A stretch of DNA of 11,741 nt from the NCBI GenBank assembly GCA_016788945.1, contig JAEUSA010000209.1, forward strand, positions 1-11,741, in the 5' to 3' direction. The DNA comes from Leptospiraceae bacterium. GTDB taxonomy: Bacteria > Spirochaetota > Leptospiria > Turneriellales > Turneriellaceae. The stretch's first letter is position 1, and every line of letters begins with the position of its first letter. The notes under the pieces were generated by a model. That model was not told the DNA's origin, did no database searches, and saw only the letters and a program-made list of their open reading frames with translations. Shown one piece after another: positions 5,914-6,964 of the stretch. The translations under genes were made by a program, and so were the position numbers.

Positions 5914-6023
5914 GGCTCTATCGCCGCCGGGCCGGTTGGGCACCCCTATGTGACATAACGAGGCTGGACAAATGCATAGGCCGAAAAAAATTGTCCGAAC
6001 CTGCCGATAATAGCGTATCTTGA

Positions 6024-6119
6024 TTAGGGATACCATGAAGAAAGTTTTGCCAGCTGATGTTTTGGCGGCTACGCCGCCAAAACATCAGCTGGCAACTTAA
6101 TTCTTCAGGGCCTCCCTAA
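6024..6119. repeat. Large nearly perfect inverted repeat (about 96 bp)
   Basis: The core is a perfect 21-bp stem, 6049-6069 with 6073-6093, around a three-base loop TAC. The arms contain GCCAGCTGATG and TTTTGGCGGC. Outward, the pairing continues as AAG/CTT with AGTT matched at a small bulge, then TGAAGAA (6036-6042) with TTCTTCA (6101-6107), then TTAGGGA (6024-6030) with TCCCTAA (6113-6119). Each arm is about 46 nt with only short bulges. It fills most of the gap between the sigma factor gene and the FecR-like gene. TA dinucleotides sit near both outer ends (6025-6026 and 6117-6118), as they would after insertion of an IS630/mariner-type miniature element. As RNA it would be a very stable hairpin covering the small ORF at 6035 and touching the next gene's ribosome site. 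Confidence 0.85.
6035..6100 (+). CDS. Possible 21-residue leader peptide inside the inverted repeat
   Basis: An ATG at 6035 with an AGGGA Shine-Dalgarno at 6026-6030 (4-nt spacing) opens a 21-codon frame ending in TAA at 6098-6100. The peptide begins MKKVLPADVL and ends HQLAT. It has no codon run typical of amino-acid attenuators. Its ribosome site lies in the outer left arm of the inverted repeat and its body covers the main stem, so translating it would unfold the hairpin. It may be a real leader peptide or a chance ORF; only the good ribosome site argues for it. Confidence 0.35.
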   Translation: MKKVLPADVLAATPPKHQLAT

Positions 6120-6130
6120 AAAGGTCAAGC

Positions 6131-6964
6131 ATGGCACGCAAAACAAAAGGCAATGCACAGGTGAAAGGTAACTCCCTTTCAGTAGCAGATACGCTGTTTG
6201 CAGCGGCTACACATCGTTACACCGATGCAGCGGCCGATTTTCTGCCCGCCGGCAATGCGCAGCGCATAGCCGGCATACGCCGATTTCAGCAGCAAAACAC
6301 TGCGGCATTAGCAAAGCTGACGCCGGCCACATGCGTGCCCGAGCAAAAGCGTGATAATCTGATCAGGGGTGCATTCCGCAAAATCACCGATTCGCGCCAT
6401 ATGAAAATACTCAGCCGGGCTGCGCTGCTGTTAGTGGCGGTTGGCACCGGCCTCACCCTCATCGGCTTTCTCGGTGACGACTCCATACGCATTGAAGACG
6501 AATGGGGTAAAAGCGCACTCAACAGCGAATTCGGCGGCAACGAAAGCGCAGTATCTTTGCGGCTGATGCGCAAAAAGAAAAAAATCGGTGAAATCACCGT
6601 TGGGCAAGGTTCAAAACTGCGCGTTGTCAAAGCCACCAATGGCGATGCCTTCAGATCAGAAGTGGCATTTGAAGGCAATGAGGCGGATTTCAAACTCAAA
6701 TACAAGGGCAAAACGTCCTTCATAGTCAACAATGGACCGTTCAAAGCAAAAGTCCGTATTGCGCAGAACCCCGATAATGACGTCCATCTGCGCTTCAAAG
6801 AGCTTGGTTCACCTATGCCCGTCGGCGAACCGCAATTCGCGATTGAAGTTATTAAAGGCGATGTGCAGATTTCAGAAGTCGATGACGGCGACAATTTTGA
6901 GCAATATAAAGCAGGTGAAAAAGCGGTTTTCACCCTCTCTCCATCTGACAGCGAAAACCTGTAA
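6131..6964 (+). CDS. Single-pass membrane protein with FecR-like periplasmic region, putative anti-sigma factor
   Basis: A 277-residue protein. Residues 1-93 form a hydrophilic N-terminal region, probably cytoplasmic. One membrane helix lies at about 94-114 (rich in Leu, Ala, Val and Gly). The remainder, probably periplasmic, is a beta-rich domain. Its pattern is like the FecR domain: IGEITVGQGSKLRV (152-165), FIVNNGPFKAKV (197-208), FAIEVIKGDVQIS (236-248) and a closing YKAGEKAVF (259-267). FecR proteins relay outer signals to an ECF sigma factor, and the neighbour at 5383 is one, so a sigma/anti-sigma pair is a reasonable inference. The FecR match is weak and no TonB-dependent receptor is nearby. 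A basic cluster RKKKK (147-151) is unusual in this position. The start is supported by AAGG 6 nt before the ATG. Confidence 0.65.
   Translation: MARKTKGNAQVKGNSLSVADTLFAAATHRYTDAAADFLPAGNAQRIAGIRRFQQQNTAALAKLTPATCVPEQKRDNLIRGAFRKITDSRHMKILSRAALLLVAVGTGLTLIGFLGDDSIRIEDEWGKSALNSEFGGNESAVSLRLMRKKKKIGEITVGQGSKLRVVKATNGDAFRSEVAFEGNEADFKLKYKGKTSFIVNNGPFKAKVRIAQNPDNDVHLRFKELGSPMPVGEPQFAIEVIKGDVQISEVDDGDNFEQYKAGEKAVFTLSPSDSENL

Follow-up and report, generated by a model that had tools for sequence, protein, structure and literature searches.

What does a near-perfect 96-bp palindrome do between the gene of an ECF-type sigma factor and that of a membrane-like protein which may regulate it, and where did the palindrome come from? 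We addressed this question in a window of 11,741 nucleotides (the whole stretch of DNA that was analyzed), which is contig 129 of the 465-contig assembly of its source genome, here called G000, and in six comparison genomes of the same genus, Turneriella (G001 to G006). An earlier note on this DNA had proposed that folding of the palindrome hides the ribosome site of a small leader ORF embedded in it and that translation of this ORF melts the stem, so that the element could set the stoichiometry of sigma and anti-sigma factor. The features discussed below are listed in Table 1.

Table 1. Features around the gap between the sigma factor gene and its downstream neighbor (positions counted from the first base of the window)
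Feature	Position	Strand	Basis or remark
ECF-type sigma factor gene, 176 aa	5383..5913	+	Pfam Sigma70_r2, NCBIfam TIGR02937
Conserved promoter-like motif GTCC...TGCCGATAAT..CGTATC	5993..6019	+	Ends 4 nt before the palindrome
Whole imperfect palindrome	6024..6119	.	Outer arms 6024-6046 and 6096-6119
Leader ORF, 21 codons and TAA stop (MKKVLPADVLAATPPKHQLAT)	6035..6100	+	Read from the sequence
Perfect core	6047..6095	.	23-bp arms 6047-6069 / 6073-6095, 3-nt loop TAC
Tip ATGTTTTGGCGGC-NNN-GCCGCCAAAACAT	6057..6085	.	Common to the hairpin G000:C303:4149-4193 and a half-hairpin at the end of G000:C168
AAAGG, probable Shine-Dalgarno (SD) of the downstream gene	6120..6124	+	Just outside the palindrome, before ATG 6131
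277-aa single-pass membrane-like protein, probable FecR-type anti-sigma regulator	6131..6964	+	Synteny, fold match

An ECF sigma gene and a probable anti-sigma gene flank the palindrome

The upstream gene product matched Pfam Sigma70_r2 with an E value of 1.5e-10 and lay above the cut-off of the NCBIfam sigma70-ECF family (TIGR02937), which bears out its earlier identification as an ECF sigma factor; the gene is present in all six same-genus genomes, at 65 to 89% identity. The downstream gene had been called FecR-like, a label that gains moderate support from the predicted fold and none from any sequence family. Its 277-aa product matched no Pfam family at 0.01 and no NCBIfam family at 0.1, the FecR family was absent among the Pfam matches at 0.1 of the 40 homologues scanned, and a PDB sequence search returned no match at E 1. 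An AlphaFold model built from 40 sequences (mean pLDDT 72.9, pTM 0.49) combines a helix at 89 to 115 with a long stretch rich in beta structure. Foldseek placed the anti-sigma regulator PupR first among its PDB matches (C-terminal domain, E 2.3e-3, probability 1.00, TM 0.35/0.45), with the next match at E 0.16 and none at E ≤0.001. We consider the protein to be probably a FecR-type anti-sigma regulator, and the position of its gene suggests that it may bind the neighboring sigma factor. Homologues of the protein numbered 61 at E ≤0.001, of which the five with an organism name were all from Turneriella sp.; a strain-level relative (P0001) has a protein 99% identical to it. The dN/dS of its gene was 0.08 for the pair G000-G001, a rough value with dS saturated; mostly, saturation of dS left this ratio not computable.

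The 217-nt gap between the sigma stop codon and the downstream ATG holds a near-perfect palindrome, as the earlier note had stated, and its pairing is far above that of shuffled sequence. The window has 42 inverted repeats, and of the 25 longest none with full complementarity exceeds the core of the palindrome in length; the 3-nt loop of this core was as described, and its arms, which had been given as 21 bp, measured 23 bp. Arms of this length with a loop of at most 8 nt are expected about 1.5e-9 times by chance in 11.7 kb of even base composition. The outer arms do run on to TTAGGGA (6024-6030) and TCCCTAA (6113-6119), with bulges and mismatches between these and the core, and their alignment score of 24 was reached by none of 5000 shuffles (mean 5.5, sd 4.2). 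The predicted RNA fold energy was -44.1 kcal/mol for the core and -64.2 kcal/mol for the whole 96 nt, and for the 161-nt region around the palindrome the fold z was -10.6, equaled by none of 200 shuffles. Together, the fold z, the outer-arm shuffles and the expected-number estimate rule out chance pairing as the origin of the palindrome.

The palindrome is specific to one lineage

All six relatives keep the sigma gene and the gene of the 277-aa protein (50 to 67% identity) side by side. We compared their gaps by one fold-based measure, which was used for all borders since a perfect-arm search alone misses hairpins with G-U pairs; its z values come from mononucleotide shuffles of the best 50-nt window, which flatters all genomes alike. 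By this measure the sigma gap of G000 reached 23 consecutive pairs and z -11.3, and a long hairpin was found in none of the six relatives, whose best windows had at most 9 consecutive pairs and z values from +0.1 to -2.9 (lowest in G001). The palindrome is lineage-specific and was probably gained recently. Because all six relatives keep both genes and none has such a palindrome, the comparison that the earlier note had named as a check refutes the switch as a conserved device, and leaves a species-specific effect standing. A conserved regulatory RNA was rejected on the same absence from the six relatives and on the lack of any Rfam 15 match in the window at the gathering score. The other six species have no hairpin there and so give no sign of selection for one at the sigma gap.

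At three further borders, hairpins were found in more than one genome. The four borders were not randomly chosen, having been met while we followed the window and the hairpins, and among them the sigma gap is the exception, with a hairpin in one of seven genomes. Strong hairpins lie 3' of the anti-sigma-like gene in G001, G002 and G004 (z -7.9, -5.2 and -6.7), those of G002 and G004 being alike and that of G001 different; none of that strength was found there in G000, G003, G005 and G006 (z -0.4 to -1.9). A second border has a hairpin in G004 (z -11.0) and a different one in G002 (z -5.4), with none in G000 and G001 (z 0.2 and -2.2). The presence of G-U pairs in the G002 and G004 hairpins is compatible with selection on RNA. 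Upstream of msrA, G000, G004 and G005 each have one hairpin, unrelated in sequence (z -12.0, -9.2 and -12.0), and G001 and G006 have none (z -2.0 and -1.2); G002 and G003 gave no msrA match at E 1e-10. The G005 hairpin upstream of msrA (locus L263) has an 18-bp stem and is read through by msrB. Within its right arm the msrB stop codon and the start codon of msrA overlap, by eye the layout expected of translational coupling.

Perfectly paired hairpins are abundant in the genus

Counting perfect arms of at least 13 bp with loops of at most 8 nt, we found 64 inverted repeats in 800 kb of G004, 50 of them outside and 14 inside genes predicted with a simple script based on hexamers (89% coding), and no such hairpin in a first-order Markov control for 400 kb of that genome. 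Smaller samples came from G006 (220 kb, 3 hairpins), G005 (76 kb, 5 hairpins) and G001 (67 kb, 4 hairpins). The source genome had 14 in 445 kb (41 contigs or parts, out of 3.7 Mb, some of them fetched because of matches), 6 of these 14 lying in 154 kb from 19 contigs picked by number alone. The pattern searches for tips and motifs reported below covered whole genomes, mostly draft assemblies.

These hairpins fall into two kinds. In kind A the loop is minimal or absent and the center AT-rich, and the members have a common tip and outer arms that partly differ from one another yet are perfectly matched. Kind B has loops of 3 to 8 nt; the 37 found in G004 comprise 14 in convergent gaps, 14 in tandem gaps, 3 in divergent gaps and 6 within genes, which corresponds to densities of 1.03 per kb in convergent, 0.25 to 0.28 in tandem and 0.14 in divergent gaps. 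A preference of stable stem-loops for convergent gaps is general in bacteria, according to the available text of one survey (PMC1590033). By its shape the palindrome of the window is a member of this abundant genus-wide class: its loop and center are those of kind B, and its 13-bp tip recalls kind A. Its placement is atypical, 134 nt past the upstream stop codon and 36 nt before the downstream start, most tandem hairpins being found no more than about 20 nt from a stop codon. Elsewhere in the genus, two palindromes (G001 L128:1449-1484 and G000 L079:7993-8020) have the same center, CTATGGAATTCCATAG, and possibly form a further repeat family.

As a candidate terminator the palindrome offers a stable GC-containing stem-loop and no clear U-tract: on both strands the tail CTTAATTCTTC just reached the scan threshold of 5 T in 8, and it has no run of four T. 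The scan returned 7 sites in the region against 4.2 (sd 2.3) in shuffles, which is not clearly above. Tails of the kind B hairpins of G004 had at least 5 T in 8 in one of 34 cases and TTTT in none.

The reading that we prefer, which could equally well prove right or wrong, is that a recently gained hairpin of this class acts as a partial transcription barrier and RNA end-stabilizer and lowers downstream expression. The hairpin lies past the promoter-like motif and ahead of the start codon, within the 5' leader of that gene, the anti-sigma-like one, and as RNA is predicted to form a stem-loop of about -64 kcal/mol. Such a stem might hold back part of the transcription that enters it and would favor a stable 3' end for transcripts arriving from the sigma gene, so that expression of the downstream gene would be lowered relative to that of sigma, not abolished.

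A shared tip and the palindromes of Y1 transposases

The palindrome might instead be a neutral or selfish mobile element of the REP type, its tip copied to a new site and holding no selected role there; we regard this as rather unlikely, and the evidence points both ways. In favor, the exact 13-base tip occurs in G000 in hairpin arms only, namely in the window, on contig C303 and at the end of contig C168, and among about 144 hairpins only some 0.00015 pairs sharing a 13-bp tip would be expected (uniform composition assumed), so that sharing by chance is unlikely. These two or three places are few for a mobile element of this kind, REP/RAYT families having high copy numbers. The C168 hairpin is cut by the contig end, the C303 copy lies near one, and these contig ends share a 53-nt overlap at 92%; they may represent one locus between divergent genes, with strain variation. 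Judged by eye, none of 11 one-mismatch tip sites forms a hairpin, and a looser tip pattern gave, across the genus and besides the known tips, mostly single-mismatch matches at close to the level of the control (26 forward versus 17 with the reversed pattern).

Turneriella does have elements of this type. At 7 of 10 Y1 transposase loci in the genus, the gene lies between perfect palindromes whose tips are identical or nearly so; at 2 of the 10 such palindromes were found within 1.5 kb on just one side, and the remaining locus has only other palindromes nearby. The two flanking tips differ slightly at the G000 locus, where the transposase match itself is short (37 bits, positions 2 to 62 of 121), which weakens the case for mobility in the source genome. 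The window's tip was found at none of the 10 loci within about 1.5 kb, a count in which a copy in the fragmented G000 assembly could be missed; on this absence we rejected membership among the transposase-associated palindromes as the main reading. The forms differ as well, the transposase palindromes being loopless with AT-rich centers and that of the window having a 3-nt loop and a GC-rich center. A GTAG/CGTC tag is absent from the flanks, which read AAAGTT/CTTAAT for 6047-6095 and TCTTGA/AAAGGT for 6024-6119, and neither a clean empty site nor a target duplication could be defined.

Several of the transposase loci are of interest in themselves. A Y1 (RAYT-like) transposase gene of G004 (L107:4259-5587, or G004:C1:1284259-1285587) has on either side palindromes that carry the tip CC[AC]CCGAATTAATTCGG[GT]GG and differ in their outer arms. 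This tip has 15 copies in G004, which also counts for the mobility of such elements, one in G002 and none in the other five genomes; one copy lies in frame within an ATPase-like gene of G004, at a site within a variable linker, for which the comparison with relatives was uninformative. The Y1 transposase genes L190, L191, L192, L193, L195 and L197 have perfect palindromes on both sides (with tips such as GGGGTAGGTTTAAACCTACCCC and CCACGGGTTTAAACCCGTGG), and at L191 and L197 the outer arms differ between the two ends of the element yet are perfectly matched.

The window's palindrome shares just the 13-bp tip with another hairpin, and its imperfect outer arms may take in an older start region. 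One improbable account of this is that in Turneriella a short tip is carried to new sites and the local flanks are turned into an inverted copy by fold-back strand copying, which would give every site a perfectly matched long stem of its own; the palindrome of the window would then be a recent product of this process and now a species-specific brake on the anti-sigma gene.

A conserved promoter-like motif precedes the palindrome

Upstream of the palindrome, the motif GTCC...TGCCGATAAT..CGTATC was found in all seven gaps between the sigma gene and its downstream neighbor. With no mismatch, its core pattern TGCCGATAWNNNCGTAT had a single site in each of the seven genomes, always in the sigma gap; with one mismatch there were 32 further sites, compared with 16 for the reversed control pattern. 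The motif may be the promoter of the 277-aa protein gene, perhaps read by the sigma factor itself. It includes GCCGATAA, which we take to recall the flagellar sigma-28 -10 element.

A transcript starting at about the first base of the palindrome would carry the hairpin at its 5' end, where it could protect the mRNA and raise downstream expression. With CGTATC (6014-6019) as a -10 element, transcription would be expected to begin near 6024-6027, on the first bases of the left arm, and the downstream SD is predicted to be open in transcripts from there. The promoter and the start site are themselves putative and the relatives share the motif without the hairpin; we hold a stabilizing role of this sort to have a small chance of being correct.

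The leader ORF and the accessibility of the ribosome sites

The arrangement of ribosome sites is as the earlier note had described it: an SD-like AGGGA (6026-6030) stands four bases upstream of the leader ATG, within the left outer arm, and the AAAGG of the downstream gene follows directly 3' of the palindrome. In the predicted fold the unpaired probability of the leader AGGGA is about zero and the T and G of the leader ATG are paired (the A was not scored), so that folding would indeed hide the leader ribosome site. This pairing is what speaks for a switch in which the stem conceals that site and leader translation melts the stem, tuning the downstream gene relative to sigma.

The second half of that proposal fared worse. 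In folds that contain the stem, the predicted openness of the downstream AGG (6122-6124) is 0.82 to 1.0 in transcripts from 6024 or 6027, 0.39 to 0.64 in one from 6019 and 0.47 to 0.96 in one from 5900; with the leader removed, as if cleared by a ribosome, it is open to just 0.11 to 0.23, the opposite of the release that leader translation had been expected to bring. By this prediction the AGG would be accessible even if no ribosome translated the leader. Nor is the downstream SD predicted to be hidden by a structure that the ORF would open, although the AGG is partly paired for one of the four transcript starts. In four of the five predicted folds, with the leader kept or removed, the start codon of the downstream gene has its A and T mostly paired. 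The leader stop codon (6098-6100) lies 30 nt upstream of the downstream start at 6131, so that the two neither overlap nor adjoin.

ORFs spanning a hairpin are ordinary, occurring on 22 of 104 hairpin strands (the window's own leader ORF strand included) and in 266 of 909 random intergenic windows. Those with an SD-like 4-mer are somewhat commoner at hairpins (5 of 104 versus 15 of 909), which mildly favors a role for the leader ORF, as do the msrB/msrA layout of G005, by which the principle may exist in the genus, and the precedent of the iraD leader ORF in the portion of its report available (PMC5574718). Weighed against the predicted accessibility, the 30-nt spacing and the lack of such a palindrome in all six relatives, a switch operated by the leader ORF appears doubtful, and the ORF is probably a by-product rather than a conserved regulatory peptide. 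There is a weak suggestion that the downstream gene once began at the leader ATG, an older start region which the left arm has since taken in: the distance of this ATG from the motif is, by eye, like that in G001, G003 and G006, and alignment of the leader start to the relatives was above shuffles for G003 only (1 of 500 shuffles as high), not for G001, G002, G004, G005 or G006.

Comparison with known systems

The palindrome and its locus have parallels in several known systems. If the hairpin does damp the anti-sigma-like gene, this would be a structural insertion that reset the balance of sigma and anti-sigma in one species. Mycobacterial-type "I-shaped" intrinsic terminators have a strong stem without a U-tract. 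The window's hairpin is like them in its strong stem with no clear run of U, and differs in standing upstream of a start codon, with termination here being putative. Among stable intergenic 3'-end stem-loops, as far as the accessible text of their survey goes (PMC1590033), the genus class finds its likeness in stems of at least 12 bp, the preference for convergent over divergent gaps and the position after stop codons; the surveyed loops are of 5 to 100 nt, whereas the Turneriella stems are perfect with tiny loops, and unlike those 3' elements the window's hairpin belongs to a 5' leader and stands 134 nt past the stop codon.

The iraD leader, in the part of its description available (PMC5574718), resembles the locus studied here in that a gene with a part in sigma-factor control has a small ORF in its leader, together with RNA structure. 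In iraD the stop codon of the ORF and the start codon overlap, and the SD is concealed, neither of which applies in the window. REP and TIR elements with their Y1 (RAYT/TIRYT) transposases are, in the available portions of two reports (PMC3733652, PMC2817692), short intergenic palindromes of which some flank IS200/IS605-type transposases. Turneriella shows the same arrangement, and its kind A palindromes agree with these published elements; the window's palindrome is unlike them in the absence of its tip from the 10 transposase loci, the missing tag and the two or three places of its tip. With many perfectly paired hairpins, some of them absent from relatives that keep the flanking genes, Turneriella is well suited to studying both how palindromes arise and how strong stems without a U-tract shape RNA ends.
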